Shown here one piece after another: positions 5,573 to 20,486 of a DNA stretch of 20,486 nucleotides. Made by a program: the position numbers and the translations under genes. Source of the stretch: a virus; the IMG/VR virus record IMGVR_UViG_3300017738_000060, positions 1 to 20,486 of that record; one strand, given 5' to 3'. The notes under the pieces are model-generated. The model searched no databases. It saw nothing but the letters and a program-made list of their open reading frames with translations, and was not told where the DNA came from. How positions within the stretch are numbered: the first letter of the stretch is position 1; each line of letters opens with the position of its first letter.

Positions 5573-5650
5573 TCAATACCAATGACTATAAACAAACACA
5601 CCGATGATAAGTATTAACCCAAGTATCATACCAGCATATGCCCAAAACAT
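5573..5650 (-). CDS. 25-aa single-pass membrane micro-protein
   Basis: This short gene exactly fills the gap between the large terminase and the HNH gene. Its ATG (5650-5648) begins on the base after the terminase TAG, and its TGA ends one base before the HNH ATG. The product starts MFWAYAGMILGLI and is hydrophobic from residue 2 to about 21, ending in YSHWY, so it should form one transmembrane helix. No strong ribosome binding site is seen, so translation is probably coupled to terminase translation. It could be a small lysis-related or membrane-docking peptide; no family is recognised. The zero-base and one-base junctions on both sides are the main evidence that it is real. Confidence 0.65.
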   Translation of the reverse strand: MFWAYAGMILGLILIIGVFVYSHWY

Positions 5651-8594: not shown

Positions 8595-8846
8595 TTATGT
8601 TCTCCTATATGATCGGGTCTTCCTTGCAATGCGCTTGGGTTGTTTTACGTGTTGCTTCCCTGCTTTTCTGCCTTTACGTTTTGCCTTAGTTGTAGCTGCA
8701 TACTCAGCGGAACTAAGCGACTTAATTGCTGCTGAAGGAAGATACCTTTCACCAGTAGCTTTCGGACCTTGCGTAGATGGTTTACCTGACTTGGTACGCC
8801 ACTTCTGCTTAGTCCATTTCTTTAAACTTCTTTGTGGTGCTTTCAT
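8595..8846 (-). CDS. 83-aa conserved basic phage protein
   Basis: A member of a family of small basic proteins that I recognise from tailed phages, marked by KWTKQKWRTKSGKPSTQG, then GPKATGERYLP, AEYAATTKAKRKG and GKQHVKQPKRIA. Function is unknown. The conserved Ser/Gly/Lys-rich core and high positive charge fit nucleic acid binding or a virion-internal role, but nothing in the sequence proves this. Its ATG overlaps the TGA of the upstream 51-aa membrane gene (ATGA), and only two bases separate its TAA from the next ATG. An AAGG-type site is not obvious at this start, so coupled translation is likely. Confidence 0.8.
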   Translation of the reverse strand: MKAPQRSLKKWTKQKWRTKSGKPSTQGPKATGERYLPSAAIKSLSSAEYAATTKAKRKGRKAGKQHVKQPKRIARKTRSYRRT

Positions 8847-8998
8847 TTTTCTCTAGAGTTCCATAAATCAAATAGTACTTTTACTTTTTCTTTAAGTGTA
8901 TCTATCTCTCCATGCATTTTAGCTAACACTATAACTAAGGTTACGAAACCAAATGCTATAGGCCAACCAGATACGATTACCGACCAAGTATCATCCAT
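8843..8998 (-). CDS. 51-aa membrane protein with C-terminal amphipathic helix
   Basis: Starts MDDTWSVIVSGWPIAFGF; residues about 5-26 form one hydrophobic segment, followed by Lys27 and a charged helix (GEIDTLKEKVKVLFDLW) with heptad-like spacing of Ile, Leu and Val. The ATG lies one base after the TGA of the upstream 63-aa gene, and its TGA overlaps the ATG of the next gene (ATGA), so both ends fit the operon exactly. Its topology, a short periplasmic or luminal N-terminus, one membrane segment and a cytoplasmic coil, resembles small holin or spanin-like phage membrane proteins, but no family is recognised. A lysis role is only a hypothesis. Confidence 0.75.
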   Translation of the reverse strand: MDDTWSVIVSGWPIAFGFVTLVIVLAKMHGEIDTLKEKVKVLFDLWNSREK

Positions 8999-8999
8999 G

Positions 9000-9191
9000 T
9001 CACGACTTATAACCTCCCCCAGCTTTTTTATAAGCTTTTGCTAACATCTGAGCTTTTCTCGCTGACCATTGTCCACTAGCACCACCCTTACTACCTGCTT
9101 TAATACGATTGAATATCTTTTTACGCATACCAGGCTTAGTATAATTACCTGATTTATTTACTGTGCTTTTGCTTTTTGTTTTTGCTGCCAT
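9000..9191 (-). CDS. 63-aa basic protein of the GxWSARKAQ family
   Basis: A small conserved basic protein carrying GSKGGASGQWSARKAQMLAK (about 33-52) and ending in KKAGGGYKS. I associate this motif with DUF5872-type proteins of phages and large viruses, from memory. Function unknown. The first 38 bases overlap the end of the upstream 235-aa gene. No strong ribosome binding site is visible at the ATG at 9191; an alternative start at the internal Met22 (9128) would keep the whole conserved block. The alternation of this gene, the 51-aa membrane gene and the 83-aa gene with 1-base and 4-base junctions suggests they are translated as a set. Confidence 0.8.
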   Translation of the reverse strand: MAAKTKSKSTVNKSGNYTKPGMRKKIFNRIKAGSKGGASGQWSARKAQMLAKAYKKAGGGYKS

Positions 9192-9861
9192 CTGAATACA
9201 AGTTGTTAAAAGTGGTATTTGGATCTAGATAGGATTCATGTCCTTCTGCTGAATGAACCCATTGAGAAGGAGCAAAATCTGGTACACCTTCACCTGTTCT
9301 CCACAAAGCAGGACTCGTAGCTCTTACTCTATTGTTTGGTAACGCTACAAAGTTACCTGTCCATTTACCTGCGTCAGTCAAGTATAACACATGAGACTGC
9401 TTATGTTGTGCAGGATCATCAGCTATATCATTGCCTGTATAATCTACAGTAAATAAATATTTACCTGTATGAAACTCCCCATCAATCTTACATATCCAAG
9501 GTGATGAGCTAACCCTGTCCATTGTTATTACACTATGCTCTCTCGATTCACAATCCCAAGGCTGACACAAATGGTCTTGCATTGGTTTAGGCCATTTCTT
9601 TAAGGGGATATCAGCTACTAATGCTTCAATTGGAAGTCTTGCCCACATTGCTCCACCATGTATATTTTCTTCTGGCCCACCTTCCAGATCTGCCTCACAA
9701 CCAGTAAACACTACTTGAAAGCTTAATGATCTATCTGGTATTGTATTAACCGCGATAGCGATTGCATGAAGAAACTCACCGTGATATTCAGTATGATTAC
9801 TAGTGAACTCCCTCCGTACCCAACAATTAAAATGGGGTACATTACTTATGAGGTAAGACAT
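9154..9861 (-). CDS. 235-aa conserved marine phage protein, function unknown
   Basis: A soluble-looking protein without signal peptide or membrane segments. Recognisable conserved blocks are FNCWVRREFT near the N-terminus, SFQVVFTGCEADLEGG, GGAMWARLPIEALVAD, QPWDCESREHSV, FTVDYTGNDIADDPAQHKQS and NNRVRATSPALWRTGEG. I recall close relatives in many marine phage genomes, always listed as hypothetical. The mix of beta-rich blocks, conserved Trp and several His/Asp/Cys residues could suit an enzyme or a virion decoration protein; I do not assign one. Its ATG shares one base with the TAA of the upstream gene (TAATG). The last 12 residues are Lys-rich and overlap the next gene. Confidence 0.85.
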   Translation of the reverse strand: MSYLISNVPHFNCWVRREFTSNHTEYHGEFLHAIAIAVNTIPDRSLSFQVVFTGCEADLEGGPEENIHGGAMWARLPIEALVADIPLKKWPKPMQDHLCQPWDCESREHSVITMDRVSSSPWICKIDGEFHTGKYLFTVDYTGNDIADDPAQHKQSHVLYLTDAGKWTGNFVALPNNRVRATSPALWRTGEGVPDFAPSQWVHSAEGHESYLDPNTTFNNLYSDGSKNKKQKHSK

Positions 9862-13011: not shown

Positions 13012-13848
13012 ATGACTATATCAAACACAATCAAAACAATCACTGAAGAAGATTCACTAGTTATCAAATCCCGTCATAGTGCAAAGATGAAGATAGCACG
13101 TGCTACCAATAAAGACGGCTCACTTGATTGGTCGAAGCTTCCAAAGCTTGTCACTACTAACACCAAGCTAGAAAAGCATAGCGACGATATCAAATATTTA
13201 ACGGCAGGCTTTCAGTTAGCACCTACATGGGTATCTGGATATAATACTTGCGCCGGTGCTAGTCTTGGATGTGCGAAAGCTTGCCTAGTATTTTCGGGTC
13301 ATGGTCAACGGCATATGGTTCACGATGGAAACCATACAGTATTGATTGCGCGTATCACTCGAACAATCCTATGGTTTGATTATCGCGATCAATTCATTGG
13401 ACAAGCTTTGAAAGAGATCGAAGCAATGAAAAGAAAAGCATTACGATTGCAAGCAAAGACCGCATTTAGACCAAACGTAATTAGTGACATAAATTTCTAT
13501 TTTTTATTCCCCCAATTATGGGATATGGGATTGGATGCGATCTATGATTATACAAAAGTAATTAAGCATACTAAGCTTAATCTTATCGGACGTTATAGCG
13601 TTACCTTATCGCGCACGGAGACAACTACAGATAAGACTATACACGATGCTATCAAGTCAGGCGTTAATGTGGCTGTAGTCTTTGATACTAAGAAGGGTCA
13701 AGACTTGCCAATCAAATATCTAGGTCATCGTGTTATAGACGGCGATCTAACTGATAACAGGTTCTTAGATGATCAAGGCGTTATAGTAGGATTACGTGAA
13801 AAGAAAACGGGCAACACCGATAAGACTGGATTTGTTGTAAATGTTTGA
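13012..13848 (+). CDS. Gene product 88 (GP88) family protein
   Basis: I recognise the GP88 domain family, widespread in phages and of unknown biochemical function. Typical features are LAPTWVSGYNTCAGASLG (about 70-87), a three-cysteine cluster Cys80, Cys87 and Cys91 (CAGASLGCAKAC), SGHGQRH just after, SDINFYF near 158 and YDYTK at 178-182, then IGRYSVTLSRTE. The Cys spacing suggests a metal or iron-sulfur site. At 278 aa the length is normal for the family. AGGAGAG lies 7 bases before the ATG. It follows the methyltransferase by 23 bases, so the two are co-transcribed; whether they act together is not known. Confidence 0.82.
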   Translation: MTISNTIKTITEEDSLVIKSRHSAKMKIARATNKDGSLDWSKLPKLVTTNTKLEKHSDDIKYLTAGFQLAPTWVSGYNTCAGASLGCAKACLVFSGHGQRHMVHDGNHTVLIARITRTILWFDYRDQFIGQALKEIEAMKRKALRLQAKTAFRPNVISDINFYFLFPQLWDMGLDAIYDYTKVIKHTKLNLIGRYSVTLSRTETTTDKTIHDAIKSGVNVAVVFDTKKGQDLPIKYLGHRVIDGDLTDNRFLDDQGVIVGLREKKTGNTDKTGFVVNV

Positions 13849-13921
13849 ACTAGTAGTAACGGCGATAATGATAACGATGTTTATTGTTATCGCCATAACC
13901 GCAATAATAATATCTAGATGA
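13841..13921 (+). CDS. 26-aa membrane micro-protein
   Basis: Starts MFELVVTAIMITMFIVIA and is hydrophobic from residue 4 to 24, ending SR, so one membrane helix is expected. Its ATG overlaps the stop of the GP88 gene by 8 bases, and its TGA lies just before the AGGAGAG site of the next gene. No strong ribosome binding site is seen, so coupling to the GP88 gene is likely. The coding DNA holds an 8-bp inverted repeat (GGCGATAA at 13861-13868, TTATCGCC at 13887-13894). Function unknown. Confidence 0.5.
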   Translation: MFELVVTAIMITMFIVIAITAIIISR

Positions 13922-13935
13922 TAGGAGAGTAAACA

Positions 13936-14160
13936 ATGACATATATTAAGATAGAGATACCAACAGAATGCAAAGAGTTTACCCAATTAGATTGTGAGGA
14001 ACTAGAACAGTTCATAAGAGATAAACAGTCTGATAGAGTAGCCGATGATTTAACTACTAAAATAAAAAATACATTTGGCAGCAAAGTCAAAGAAGTTGAA
14101 AGTAGAGTTTTTGATATAATCCAATTACATAAATTTCTAGACAATAAAGAGGGGATCTAA
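13936..14160 (+). CDS. 74-aa early protein, unknown
   Basis: A small acidic, helical protein (CEELEQFIRDKQSDRVADDL, then a KVKEVESRVFDIIQLHKF helix). Preceded by AGGAGAGTAAACA, one of the standard ribosome binding cassettes of this module. No family is recognised. Lies between a membrane micro-protein and two further small genes in a run typical of early host-takeover genes. Confidence 0.75.
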   Translation: MTYIKIEIPTECKEFTQLDCEELEQFIRDKQSDRVADDLTTKIKNTFGSKVKEVESRVFDIIQLHKFLDNKEGI

Positions 14161-14163
14161 ACA

Positions 14164-14349
14164 ATGAAACGGATTAGAGTTAAACTAAAAGAAATCAAAC
14201 ATCTTTTAAGACTTAATAGTGATGCTGTTAAACATGGTTTAAGTGAGGGATACTTCCAACAATCCAGACCTGAGACTATAATTGATTGGCATATTAATAA
14301 AACCAGGAAAATCATGCATGAACAATTAAGGGATATACACAATGTCTGA
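14164..14349 (+). CDS. 61-aa basic early protein, unknown
   Basis: Basic N-terminal helix (KRIRVKLKEIKHLLRL), then a GYFQQSRPETIIDWHINKTR segment. Starts four bases after the previous stop with GAGGGGAT upstream. Overlaps the next gene by 8 bases. Function unknown; small basic proteins in early modules often bind host targets, but nothing specific is visible. Confidence 0.7.
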   Translation: MKRIRVKLKEIKHLLRLNSDAVKHGLSEGYFQQSRPETIIDWHINKTRKIMHEQLRDIHNV

Positions 14350-14542
14350 TTTATCTGATGCAATTACAGAAATGATCTGGACGGCAGCCCATAATAATAA
14401 AGATTATGGATTGAAAGAAGCGAAGGTATTATCTGAGACTTTGAAAGTGCCAGTTAAGACTATAATGAAAATCATTCAACATGGCAGAAGAACGCCTAAA
14501 GGTGTTGATTGGGATATTGTAAAGAGTAGGAAAATAAATTAA
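14342..14542 (+). CDS. 66-aa protein, possible helix-turn-helix
   Basis: Residues about 22-50 (GLKEAKVLSETLKVPVKTIM followed by KIIQHGRR) have the spacing of a helix-turn-helix: a helix, a short turn at the Val-Pro-Val region and a basic second helix. Preceded by AGGGAT. Could be a small DNA-binding regulator, but the match is weak and no family is recognised. Confidence 0.65.
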   Translation: MSDLSDAITEMIWTAAHNNKDYGLKEAKVLSETLKVPVKTIMKIIQHGRRTPKGVDWDIVKSRKIN

Positions 14543-14595
14543 TGATGTATCTTATTATTTGGTTTTGTGTTAGTACAATATTAATAAACTTATAG
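14542..14595 (+). CDS. 17-aa hydrophobic micro-ORF
   Basis: Starts on the last base of the previous TAA (TAATG) with two ATGs in a row and codes for an almost wholly hydrophobic peptide (MMYLIIWFCVSTILINL). It stops just before the AGGAGAG site of the next gene. Its length makes chance possible; it is listed because the placement matches that of the other membrane micro-proteins. Confidence 0.3.
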   Translation: MMYLIIWFCVSTILINL

Positions 14596-14604
14596 GAGAG
14601 TAAA

Positions 14605-14757
14605 ATGGATAAAGTAACTAAAAAAGATGTAATGGATGCAATAGAGTATTTTTGGGCAGGTGGATATATTGATGAGTTGACAACTGATAAAAGATTTTAT
14701 ACAGAGATATTATTAAAATGTTGCGCTAAAAAATATAATGTAGTATTAGAAGATTAA
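14605..14757 (+). CDS. 50-aa early protein, unknown
   Basis: Starts after the cassette AGGAGAGTAAA and ends 13 bases before the next ATG. A compact mixed-charge protein with a DAIEYFWAGGYIDEL core and KCCAKKYNVV near the C-terminus. No family recognised. The strong ribosome binding site and tight spacing make it a real gene. Confidence 0.75.
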   Translation: MDKVTKKDVMDAIEYFWAGGYIDELTTDKRFYTEILLKCCAKKYNVVLED

Positions 14758-14769
14758 AGGAGAGTAAAA

Positions 14770-14970
14770 ATGGATTTAGATAAATTTACATTAATGAGTA
14801 AATTAAAACCAGTAGATAGATGGAGGCTTGAGAATATGTATGATGGCCCAATACCTATAGAAGTAATTAAAGGTAAGCTTGCATCATATGAAGGTGAGCC
14901 AGATATTGATAATGCTTACGGGTATAACGGAGCTACAGTAGATCCTAGAAATGAGATAGACGATGACTGA
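14770..14970 (+). CDS. 66-aa acidic early protein, unknown
   Basis: Preceded by AAAGGAGAG. The N-terminus is amphipathic (LDKFTLMSKLKPVDRWRLEN), and the C-terminus is acidic with an AYGYNGATVDPRNEIDDD end. The stop overlaps the start of the next membrane gene by 8 bases. No family recognised. Confidence 0.75.
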   Translation: MDLDKFTLMSKLKPVDRWRLENMYDGPIPIEVIKGKLASYEGEPDIDNAYGYNGATVDPRNEIDDD

Positions 14971-15082
14971 TATTCTAATAGATATAATATTCAGTAATGA
15001 GTTTTTTATAATCATGTGTTGCATCGGATGTGTGGCAGCATACACTTTAGTTAAGATTTACAATGATAAATGGGAAGGATAA
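14963..15082 (+). CDS. 39-aa membrane micro-protein
   Basis: Starts inside the end of the previous gene and codes for one hydrophobic segment (about residues 5-29, including IIMCCIGCVAAYTL with three cysteines), then a short charged tail (KIYNDKWEG). Its last codons carry the AAGGATAAA that serves as ribosome binding site for the next gene. One transmembrane helix is expected. Function unknown. Confidence 0.6.
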   Translation: MTDILIDIIFSNEFFIIMCCIGCVAAYTLVKIYNDKWEG

Positions 15083-15087
15083 AGTAG

Positions 15088-15240
15088 ATGTTTACTGAAA
15101 AGATAAGCCAGGAAAAAGTTGATGAAATAAGACTTGCATTAGAAGCATCTACAGGGTATAAGAGTTCATTAAGTAATTTAGAATTAAAAGCAATTATATA
15201 CTTTGGTAATAAGATAGCAGAGAAAGGATTAAAAGTATGA
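15088..15240 (+). CDS. 50-aa early protein, unknown
   Basis: Helical and charged (KISQEKVDEIRLALEAS, then SNLELKAIIYFGNKIA). AAGGAT lies 8 bases upstream. The TGA overlaps the ATG of the next gene (ATGA), so translation is coupled. No family recognised. Confidence 0.7.
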   Translation: MFTEKISQEKVDEIRLALEASTGYKSSLSNLELKAIIYFGNKIAEKGLKV

Positions 15241-15389
15241 ATAAATTAACCGAAGATTTTGAATTAGTTTGGGATGTTCTACAGGAATATCGTGAAGAGA
15301 CTAAGGCAGTAGGGTTTAAATCAAATGATCGGCGTTGGGAAAAACTCTGCAACGCAATGGCTAGGATTGAGGAGCGAGCCAATGGCTAA
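15237..15389 (+). CDS. 50-aa early protein, unknown
   Basis: Starts by ATGA overlap. An alternating charged and aromatic helix (EDFELVWDVLQEYREETK), then NDRRWEKLCNAMARIEER. It overlaps the next gene by 8 bases. AGAAAGGA lies 9 bases before the start. No family recognised. Confidence 0.7.
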   Translation: MNKLTEDFELVWDVLQEYREETKAVGFKSNDRRWEKLCNAMARIEERANG

Positions 15390-15582
15390 AACAACAACGG
15401 TAATCCAGAGAACCAATCGTTTCACTGGTGAGAAGGATGTAGTAGAGATTGAGAATAAGGCAGCATCGGCAGGCGGTGATGTAAATGGTAGGGTATATAA
15501 ACAATACCTTACAAAGACTATCAAATATAAGTATAAGTTATTAGGTATTCGCGGAACTAAATTAGGAAGGTTTGTAGCGTGA
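15382..15582 (+). CDS. 66-aa basic protein, unknown
   Basis: I choose the ATG at 15382, preceded by GAGGAGC; a longer in-frame start at 15325 would overlap the upstream gene by 65 bases and lacks a clear site. The sequence is beta-like and basic (TTTVIQRTNRFTGEKDVVEI, then KQYLTKTIKYKYKLLGI). Overlaps the next gene by four bases (GTGA). No family recognised. Confidence 0.75.
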   Translation: MAKTTTVIQRTNRFTGEKDVVEIENKAASAGGDVNGRVYKQYLTKTIKYKYKLLGIRGTKLGRFVA

Positions 15583-15797
15583 AGATAGCAAGTAGTTATA
15601 ATCCATTGTATAATGATTTTGCACCAGAGAAAAACTATAAAGATTTAGTTACAATAGGTGATGATCCAAAGATTGCATATCAAGAGAAGGAGATTAATGC
15701 TTTAATGGAAGAGAAAAAAATACTAAACGAACTGCTAACGAAGCAGGACCACATGATTGAAGAACTAGTTAGAAGATTAAAGGAGTTAACACCATGA
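15579..15797 (+). CDS. 72-aa coiled-coil protein, GTG start
   Basis: Starts with GTG in a GTGA overlap, with AGGAAGG 7-13 bases upstream. The C-terminal half (EKEINALMEEKKILNELL, then DHMIEELVRRLKEL) is a strong coiled coil. Function unknown; may oligomerise or bind a partner protein. Confidence 0.75.
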   Translation: MKIASSYNPLYNDFAPEKNYKDLVTIGDDPKIAYQEKEINALMEEKKILNELLTKQDHMIEELVRRLKELTP

Positions 15798-16003
15798 GTA
15801 TAGACCACATAGGCACTAGTACATTATTAAAACATCCTGTATACTCTCCGTCAGGAGACCTGGTTTTACATAAGAGTAAGCTTAGTCATGCACATAAAGC
15901 CCAATCAAATGTACCAGTTCCACCAGTAGAGAAAGCAGATTTCCTGCAGCCGACTAAAGATAATTCAAAATCAATCGGTAAAATTATAGATATAAAGGTA
16001 TAA
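15794..16003 (+). CDS. 69-aa early protein, unknown
   Basis: Starts by ATGA overlap with AAAGGAG upstream. The sequence is Ser/His/Pro/Lys-rich (KHPVYSPSGDLVLHKSKL, then AQSNVPVPPVEKADFLQP) and looks partly disordered. It ends three bases before the MazG-like gene. No family recognised. Confidence 0.7.
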   Translation: MSIDHIGTSTLLKHPVYSPSGDLVLHKSKLSHAHKAQSNVPVPPVEKADFLQPTKDNSKSIGKIIDIKV

Positions 16004-16006
16004 AAA

Positions 16007-16330
16007 ATGAGTGATTTAACAGGCTATCAAATGTGGACGCAATCGACTGCGATATATACTAACCCAATTATCTATCCATCATTGGAGTTAGCAGGTGAAG
16101 TTGGAGAAGTATGTAACCAAGTTAAAAAGATTTATAGAGATGATAATGGAGAGGTTACTTACAAACGTAAAAAAGATTTAGAGAAAGAGTTAGGTGATGT
16201 TCTATGGGCATTAGCTAGACTGATTGATGATCTAGGTTTGGACTTTGATAAAGTTAAAGAACTAAACGTGATGAAGCTAGAAGATAGACTGCAAAGAAAT
16301 GTTATCGGTGGAAGTGGAGATAATAGATGA
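16007..16330 (+). CDS. MazG-like nucleotide pyrophosphohydrolase
   Basis: Cleaves nucleoside triphosphates or related alarmones to monophosphate and pyrophosphate. A 107-aa single MazG-like domain with the all-alpha NTP-pyrophosphatase motif: Glu31 and Glu34 in ELAGEVGEV, then Glu61 and Asp64 in EKELGDVLW, giving the ExxE...ExxD magnesium site. The N-terminus (LTGYQMWTQSTA) is typical. Phage MazG-like proteins are thought to alter host nucleotide or (p)ppGpp pools, or to clear unusual nucleotides. It shares an ATGA overlap with the following membrane micro-gene. Confidence 0.9.
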   Translation: MSDLTGYQMWTQSTAIYTNPIIYPSLELAGEVGEVCNQVKKIYRDDNGEVTYKRKKDLEKELGDVLWALARLIDDLGLDFDKVKELNVMKLEDRLQRNVIGGSGDNR

Positions 16331-16434
16331 TTATGGATGGCGCAGCAGTATGGATTATATCATTATTAATATATGTATTTTTTATGTATAGTGTATATAA
16401 AATGGAGCAATGGAGAGAAGGGGATGGGAAATAA
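16327..16434 (+). CDS. 35-aa membrane micro-protein
   Basis: Begins by ATGA overlap with the MazG-like gene. Residues about 6-21 (AAVWIISLLIYVFFMY) form one membrane segment, followed by a short charged tail (KMEQWREGDGK). It overlaps the start of the next gene by 11 bases; its tail codons carry that gene's GGAG/AGGGG site. Function unknown. Confidence 0.6.
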   Translation: MIMDGAAVWIISLLIYVFFMYSVYKMEQWREGDGK

Positions 16435-18879: not shown

Positions 18880-20486
18880 CTGAATATGCAGTCGTATTAG
18901 ATCTTGAAATAGATTTAGGAGGTGATCGTAAAGATCCCTCACCATACAACAAGGATAATACGTTCGTAGCATTAGGTTACACACTAAGATCTCCGCATGG
19001 TTATCTTCTTAATGGTAATACTGAAGTAGTTATTTTGAATGTAGAAGATAATAATTTTACTGAGTTTAATACTTTTAAACGTGTATTGAGTAATGCAAAG
19101 TATGTCGTAGCACACAATGCTAAGTTTGATGTTGCGTGGTTACGTGAGATTGGTATTGATTGTGATGTAAAGATTATTGATACCATGATTAATGAATATG
19201 TATTAAGTAAAGGTATCCGTAACAAGCTTAGTCTTGAAGCATTATCTCATAAGTATGATTCTATAAGAAAGCAGGACGTACTAAAGAATATGCTTGATAA
19301 AGGACTAAACTACAGCGATCTTCCTAAAAACCTACAGATCTCATACCTACGTGACGATATACTAGCTACTGCTGATATATTCCAGAAACAAGAAAGATTA
19401 TTCAGAGAGGATGACAACATATCCCTGCTTCCTATAAGAGATCTTATGTGTGAGTTTTGCTCTGTCCTAACAGATATAGAAAGATCTGGTATGGCAATTG
19501 ATATGAATGTCCTTGATCAGGTGGATATAGATTATCAAAGAGAACAGGAAGAACTTACTCGATATCTTCAAACAGAAACCAGGAAACTTATGGGTGATAA
19601 GGATATAAACTTATCTTCTCCTGAACAGTTATCTACTGTTGTGTATTCCTGTAACCTCACAGATAAGAAGCTCTGGAAAGAGGTAATGGATATAGGTGTA
19701 GATGATAAGGGAAAGCCCAAGAGAAGACCTTACATGAAGGATGAGGGTTTCAGATCAGCATTTAAATCTTGCTTCAGTGTTGCATTTAAAACCAGAGCGA
19801 TTAAGTGTGGCAGCTGTTATGGTAAAGGACACTATTATAAAGTTAAGAAGAATGGAGAGAAGTTTAAGAAACCTACTAAATGCGAACACTGCGAAGGACT
19901 AGGTGTACTTTATCTAGAAGTAGATGAGGTAGCAGGGTTACGGATCAGACCTAAGTTAGAACTAGCATCAGCAGGTGGTTTTAAGACTGACAAGATAACA
20001 TTAACTGAGAACATCAAGACAACTACTAATCCACAAGTTAAGAAGTTTCTTGAATCATTAGTTAGGTTGTCTGCAATAGATACTTATCGTGCATCATTTA
20101 TTGAAGGTATAAAGAAAGGTATGAAATCAGATGGTTTACTTCATTCTAATTTTAATCAGTGCATTACTGCAACTGGTCGTTTAAGTAGTTCTAATCCCAA
20201 TCTACAGAATATGCCTAAGGGTAGATTGTTTCCAGTTCGCAAGGCATTTGTAAGTAGATTTGAAGGGGGAACACTTGTCGAAATTGATTACAGTCAACTT
20301 GAGTTTAGAGTTGCAGGAATACTCGCCTCAGATGAAACAGTTAAACAAGAAGTCGAATCTGGTTTTGACGTTCACGCCTACACTGCCAAAGTCCTCTCCG
20401 ACAATGGAGAAGTTACTGACAGAGGAGCAGCAAAAGCTTCTACCTTCCGTCCACTTTACGGTGGAACTCAAGGAACTCCTGCTCAA
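18876..20486 (+). CDS. polA: DNA polymerase I family (family A), partial at right edge, with DnaJ-type zinc insert
   Basis: Replicative phage DNA polymerase; 537 codons are open to the window edge with no stop, so the C-terminus is missing. The 3'-5' exonuclease has motif I LDLEID (Asp9, Glu11), motif II HNAKFDV (Asn81, Asp85) and motif III YLRDD (Tyr157, Asp161). Residues 311-344 carry two CxxCxGxG units (Cys311, Cys314; Cys336, Cys339), a DnaJ-like zinc motif inserted before the fingers region. The polymerase domain then has TATGRLSSSNPNLQNMP (Arg435), motif A VEIDYSQLEFR (Asp471) and motif B RGAAKASTFRPLYGG (Arg516, Lys520, Phe524). Phe524 aligns with E. coli Pol I Phe762. The zinc insert recalls HMO-2011-type phages (from memory). 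Confidence 0.93.
   Translation, partial: MTEYAVVLDLEIDLGGDRKDPSPYNKDNTFVALGYTLRSPHGYLLNGNTEVVILNVEDNNFTEFNTFKRVLSNAKYVVAHNAKFDVAWLREIGIDCDVKIIDTMINEYVLSKGIRNKLSLEALSHKYDSIRKQDVLKNMLDKGLNYSDLPKNLQISYLRDDILATADIFQKQERLFREDDNISLLPIRDLMCEFCSVLTDIERSGMAIDMNVLDQVDIDYQREQEELTRYLQTETRKLMGDKDINLSSPEQLSTVVYSCNLTDKKLWKEVMDIGVDDKGKPKRRPYMKDEGFRSAFKSCFSVAFKTRAIKCGSCYGKGHYYKVKKNGEKFKKPTKCEHCEGLGVLYLEVDEVAGLRIRPKLELASAGGFKTDKITLTENIKTTTNPQVKKFLESLVRLSAIDTYRASFIEGIKKGMKSDGLLHSNFNQCITATGRLSSSNPNLQNMPKGRLFPVRKAFVSRFEGGTLVEIDYSQLEFRVAGILASDETVKQEVESGFDVHAYTAKVLSDNGEVTDRGAAKASTFRPLYGGTQGTPAQ

Follow-up and report, generated by a model that had tools for sequence, protein, structure and literature searches.

The stretch analysed here, referred to as the window, is a virus record of 20,486 bases (IMGVR_UViG_3300017738_000060) from a marine HMO-2011-type podophage, and the elements in question are six micro open reading frames (micro-ORFs) of 17-51 amino acids (aa) with one hydrophobic segment each. 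They lie on the plus strand at 13841-13921, 14542-14595, 14963-15082, and 16327-16434, and on the minus strand at 5573-5650 and 8843-8998. An earlier note on this DNA had proposed them, 14542-14595 only tentatively, as single-helix membrane microproteins, those on the plus strand starting at or inside the stop codons of upstream genes. All six are present, with a mean Kyte-Doolittle value of 2.1-3.0 over 17 residues of the hydrophobic segment, and the overlaps were likewise verified, being 8 nucleotides (nt) at 13841 and 14963, 4 nt (ATGA) at 16327, and 1 nt (TAATG) at 14542.

Over 94% of its length, the portal protein of the window shares 63% identity with its counterpart in Puniceispirillum phage HMO-2011, and profiles recognised TerL, a primase and a DnaB-like helicase encoded by separate genes, MazG, and a DNA methyltransferase. 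The homologous portal and TerL, along with the separate primase and helicase, place the window among the HMO-2011-type phages, which count among the dominant phages in marine waters (PMC9038755). By gene content, the plus-strand half is a DNA-metabolism and replication module, which we infer to be expressed early. The earlier note had grouped 5573 and 8843 with the micro-ORFs of this module; both are confirmed as micro-ORFs, but their location is on the packaging/structural side, and their function may differ from that of the micro-ORFs in the replication module.

Conservation and selection in relatives

Primase, GP88, and TerL served as queries to collect relatives from IMG/VR, and no DNA near-identical to the window was found in phage records. 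When profiles of 13841 and 14963, the hairpin pattern described below, MazG, and the 14342 gene were used for further scans, most of the contigs recovered were ones already collected, which indicates that the group of close relatives is small. Each of the six frames was found complete in several of these relatives. Selection was assessed by comparing the pooled ratio of nonsynonymous to synonymous changes (pN/pS) with neutral simulations on the tree of each family, and the low ratio anticipated in the earlier note was recovered for five of the six, whose values fall below the neutral simulations. Ordinary neighbouring genes have pN/pS values of 0.05-0.25; judged by these ratios, the microproteins change more rapidly than the adjacent genes, yet non-neutrally in five of six cases. 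As a set, they are thus short conserved frames under purifying selection, with 13841-13921 by itself at p=0.07. The note had named disrupted frames beside intact neighbours as evidence against it; no disrupted copies were encountered, and since absences are always clean, the micro-ORFs behave as accessory genes rather than spurious ones. Its suggestion of numerous micro-membrane proteins in this phage also holds, and relatives employ even more of them.

The hydrophobicity of all six exceeds that expected from the base composition of the module (p 0.0005-0.013). Against the composition of each ORF itself, the excess is weaker, being significant for five of the six, with p=0.10 for 14542. Charges are distributed asymmetrically: K/R before the helix is absent in nearly all families, and K/R occurs in the tail in most. 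Neither Pfam nor PHROGs profiles produced a credible match to the five window micro-ORFs that were scanned or to the groups F2-F5 introduced below (best E about 0.002, without a function); the 17-aa product of 14542-14595 is too short for such a scan and was left out. Likewise, no credible homologues of 8843, 5573, or 14963 were found by tblastn in 50,697 phage records.

Several observations concern micro-ORFs more broadly. A V/L-Y-x-H-x-D-like motif (VYSHKD, VYVHWD, VYAHFD) ends the helix in otherwise different microproteins of packaging and replication modules alike, including window 5573-5650 (minus strand), L016 3058-3144, and members in L030, L048, L051, L058, and L066. A more distant phage group (L031-L042, 12 loci) has another conserved hydrophobic micro-ORF family, MGLVDIIISLLIFLILAALTL, for example at L035 5497-5562. 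The candidate at 20131-20184 (MVYFILILISALLQLVV) was dropped, as the region downstream of the helicase is spanned on that strand by an open frame of 544 aa, which is probably the polymerase. Antisense-strand clusters in the mechanical micro-ORF scan shadow conserved genes, and cluster counts alone were not used as evidence.

Exchange of micro-ORFs at fixed junctions

The clearest pattern is seen directly downstream of the MazG-like pyrophosphatase gene (16007-16330, plus strand; phrog_229, E 5.6e-27), the fixed upstream partner of a variable slot. In the window, this slot is filled by 16327-16434, which encodes 35 aa with one helix and has a pN/pS of 0.63 (p=0.043). Of 20 relatives, counting the window, 15 have a one-helix microprotein of 28-39 aa directly after MazG, and it starts at an ATGA or GTGA (RTGA) overlap wherever MazG is in view; the L013 contig begins at the micro-ORF, leaving MazG outside the view there. 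The occupants fall into five groups: F1 (window, L009, L013, L014), F2 (MSDL; L004, L008, L012), F3 (MIKW; L016, L018), F4 (MSLFW; L005, L011, L019), and F5 (MSYNE; L006, L007, L010). In the remaining five relatives (L001-L003, L017, L020), the slot is cleanly empty. Groups F2-F5 have pN/pS values of 0.07-0.17 (p<=0.007).

On the primase-helicase tree, the occupant of this slot changes ten times, with a minimum of five. L005 and L006 are identical at 264 of 266 positions of MazG DNA and 736 of 747 of the primase and carry F4 and F5, respectively, and the window and L003, with 712 of 750 primase positions identical (38 differences), have the slot filled and empty, respectively. In the more distant relative L026 (around 6735), a 69-aa ORF of QVxxQVWYQV-like repeats follows MazG at an ATGA overlap, in place of the membrane microprotein.

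A comparable slot lies downstream of TerL, where 5573-5650, encoding 25 aa with one helix, begins directly at the TerL stop (15 distinct sequences, pN/pS 0.34, p=0.0025, the simulation floor). A one-helix ORF follows TerL in 37 of 40 loci with a TerL at least 80% identical; two sequence types occur, the second in 13 loci, and L113-L115, like every locus with TerL identity below 78%, show a clean absence of the slot. Three TTG-start hits in this slot lie inside the following gene and were discounted as spurious. A likeness of 5573 to CydX was set aside, no Pfam match being found in its support.

The slot after the 14342-type gene is occupied by the 17-aa ORF (14542-14595; pN/pS 0.39, p=0.001) in eight loci, counting the window, and by an unrelated 22-aa hydrophobic ORF in L017-L019. 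The 39-aa one-helix ORF at 14963-15082 (nine homologues, pN/pS 0.42, p=0.001) overlaps the stop of two different genes and has a relocated copy in L011. In L007 and L010, it is free-standing with its own AAGGAAG ribosome site upstream, and this gain of a ribosome site upon uncoupling is hard to explain unless the frame is translated.

The 8843-8998 ORF encodes 51 aa, with one helix and a charged, helix-like C-terminal tail (20 distinct sequences, pN/pS 0.27, p=0.0025, again the simulation floor). Distant homologues were found in two contigs of alphaproteobacterial metagenome-assembled genomes (L274, L275), where the start of the homologue overlaps (ATGA) the gene of a predicted membrane protein of 131 aa, which is itself preceded by another 51-aa one-helix protein. 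These three consecutive small predicted membrane proteins (L274 2340-3039, L275 3457-4156) are possibly an undescribed lysis cassette; they adjoin one another, and no endolysin was identified there. In the window, a 235-aa protein (9154-9861, minus strand) matches phrog_3704, labelled ferredoxin/host takeover (E 3.4e-30).

A conserved hairpin within 13841-13921

The 13841-13921 ORF encodes 26 aa with one hydrophobic helix and overlaps the stop of a gene of the GP88 family (PF17338). Its frame is intact in seven distinct sequences, with a pN/pS of 0.63. The homologous block occurs behind three upstream genes, namely GP88, a gene ending in DEYGDQNV, and a gene ending in VDLN, and ahead of several different downstream genes, and its ATG overlaps the upstream stop in every context (ATGTTTGA or TAATG). 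In L011 and L016, similarity starts at the ATG and ends at the stop codon of the frame, and the sole indel of the family is a 3-nt in-frame deletion in L004.

Within this ORF, a predicted RNA hairpin at 13861-13894 has a 14-bp stem (13861-13874 with 13881-13894) and a 6-nt loop. The stem forms in all seven sequences (98 of 98 cells paired), and its five variable columns are all one-sided and pair-preserving, four of them altering the amino acid. Variation is lower in the stem columns than in the remainder of the frame (5/28 vs 23/50, p=0.015), also when third positions are compared (1/10 in the stem vs 9/16 elsewhere in the ORF), and 0.5-2% of synonymous recodings yield a stem of 14 bp or longer. 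No two-sided compensatory change was found in the seven sequences, so covariation support is absent, and the conserved stem could represent a single ancestral event. No hairpins beyond chance were found in the other micro-ORFs. An intrinsic terminator is unlikely, with no T-run following the hairpin, and one match to the hairpin pattern (L182), which lacks a frame of this kind, was dismissed as a chance hit. Taken together, these patterns suggest that 13841-13921 is probably under dual protein and RNA constraint, and the hairpin would probably act in cis on the mRNA. Separately, the string GGAGAGTAA is repeated just ahead of three module genes (window 13924, 14595, 14759) on the plus strand only; it is possibly a shared ribosome-site linker that could aid recombination between cassettes.

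Proposed function and alternative explanations

Sequence comparison shows conserved frames that start at or inside upstream stops, with purifying selection in five of six, unrelated one-helix proteins exchanged at one junction, and clean gain and loss between near-identical backbones. We interpret the micro-ORFs as accessory, translationally coupled, single-span membrane microproteins, probably with the N-terminus outside and the C-terminus inside, whose targets would be membrane complexes of the host or the phage, and assign this reading a probability of about 0.7. Its parts differ in strength: that these are real, translated genes is very likely from the sequence evidence, and that the single span inserts into the membrane is only slightly less so, whereas an accessory role in host or membrane interaction, argued by analogy, is tentative and falls somewhat short of even odds. 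Mechanistically, ribosomes ending the upstream gene would re-initiate on the overlapping start (termination-reinitiation), so that a small amount of product, tied to the upstream gene, would be made with no need for a strong ribosome-binding site. The peptide would then enter the inner membrane, with its short acidic N-terminus outside and its K/R-containing tail inside, where it may bind and alter membrane complexes of the host or the phage as part of host takeover, exclusion, or counter-defence. Such an action would explain why a slot is retained while its occupant varies.

Several points weigh against this interpretation. The functional step relies on analogy, since Pfam and PHROGs identify no family. 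The selection result for F1 is based on four sequences. F1 and F5, which share a W-I-S/C...Y pattern, may be remotely related, as may F2 and F3 (N..EY pattern), so that the independent groups may be three rather than five. The orientation is not uniform either, as the F2 tail is acidic and without K/R and an L051-type family has K/R ahead of the helix. Finally, hydrophobicity measured against own composition is non-significant in 4 of 12 ORFs tested, a caution that matters because AT-rich DNA alone partly predicts hydrophobic microproteins (PMC11188072).

The same compositional effect underlies the most sceptical explanation, in which most of these are chance hydrophobic frames in AT-rich junctions, hydrophobic codons being favoured by such DNA (PMC11188072), and are kept by constraints from overlapping genes and ribosome-binding sites. 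The overlaps, however, span only 1-8 nt, and the genes relocate as units; the selection tests, in which pN/pS fell below the neutral level for F2-F5 and for all but one of the six window ORFs, have largely refuted this explanation already, and we regard it as very improbable. For 13841-13921 only, an unlikely but more serious alternative is that selection preserves the RNA hairpin, which would serve to process or stabilise the mRNA or to control translation between neighbouring genes, with the hydrophobic frame incidental or secondary. The ubiquity of the stem, its exclusively pair-preserving and largely nonsynonymous changes, the quiet third positions, the rarity of such stems among recodings, and a pN/pS not significantly below neutral all fit that explanation, but it sits poorly with a homologous block that runs from ATG to stop, a start overlapping three different upstream stops, an in-frame indel, and hydrophobicity far above base composition (p 0.0005), while the missing two-sided compensation leaves room for a stem inherited from one event. 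The earlier description of this ORF as a micro-membrane protein is corrected by the conserved hairpin, which it did not mention, and by the weak evidence of selection at the amino-acid level.

A further explanation, which we consider slightly less probable still, is that the microproteins are membrane-active killers, similar to type I toxins or pinholins, that depolarise the membrane or help lysis instead of binding specific complexes. In size and hydrophobicity they are similar to Ibs/TisB-type peptides and pinholins, the neighbourhood of the distant 8843 homologues (the 131-aa and 51-aa membrane proteins) resembles a lysis cassette, and a 37-aa one-helix protein of HMO-2011 adjoins the lysozyme. 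Against this, neither Pfam nor PHROGs gives a lysis-family match for 8843, the best being spanin-like at E 0.096 for a distant homologue only; most of the micro-ORFs lie in the replication module, where lysis genes would be unexpected, and a genome carries several families.

Returning to microproteins that act on membrane complexes, a more specific proposal is that the junctions after MazG, TerL, and the 14342-type gene are dedicated coupled exchange slots for non-homologous one-helix microproteins, forming a polymorphic micro-arsenal under changing selection from hosts or rival phages, with one gene doubling as a conserved regulatory hairpin; this is a possibility that we hold more loosely than the host-interaction role itself. 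If HMO-2011-type genomes hold at least six one-helix microproteins that tend to go unannotated, a recurrent component of their host interaction would be invisible. Furthermore, a fixed slot with interchangeable occupants offers a clean comparison, namely one backbone with different microproteins.

Comparison with known systems

Cultured HMO-2011-type roseophages have analogous microproteins. CRP-1 (L185) has an unannotated 32-aa one-helix ORF at 9140-9238 that overlaps the helicase stop, a relative of which is annotated in CRP-345 as gp23, with a weaker relative in CRP-2; in this one published genome, CRP-1, standard gene calling did miss such an ORF, as the earlier note had predicted. These proteins share a length of 28-32 aa, one helix, an acidic N-terminus, K in the tail, and a location in the replication module, but differ in sequence and in junction, lying downstream of the helicase and before thymidylate synthase.

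Small-gene families were reportedly predicted across global phage genomes by Fremin et al. 2022 (Cell Rep 39:110984); like the micro-ORFs described here, these are short, mostly unannotated phage genes recognised through conservation, to which the present analysis adds the pattern of exchange at one slot. T4-type phages reportedly carry mobile regulatory cassettes (Arbiol et al. 2010, cited in PMC4177764), in which small early genes are shuffled between fixed neighbours and a junction has a stem-loop; the present system differs in that the hairpin lies inside a reading frame, no promoter is shown, and most exchanged slots are without a hairpin.

Transmembrane microproteins of phages and bacteria are known as a class (PMC11188072; PMC11364881). 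The intergenic microproteins of Enterobacteriaceae are similar in having 15-70 codons, purifying selection, and mostly hydrophobic, potentially transmembrane products, but they are encoded on bacterial chromosomes, whereas those considered here lie in phage operons and start on the upstream stop (PMC11188072). The class itself is already known, and what is added here is a fixed junction whose occupants are exchanged.

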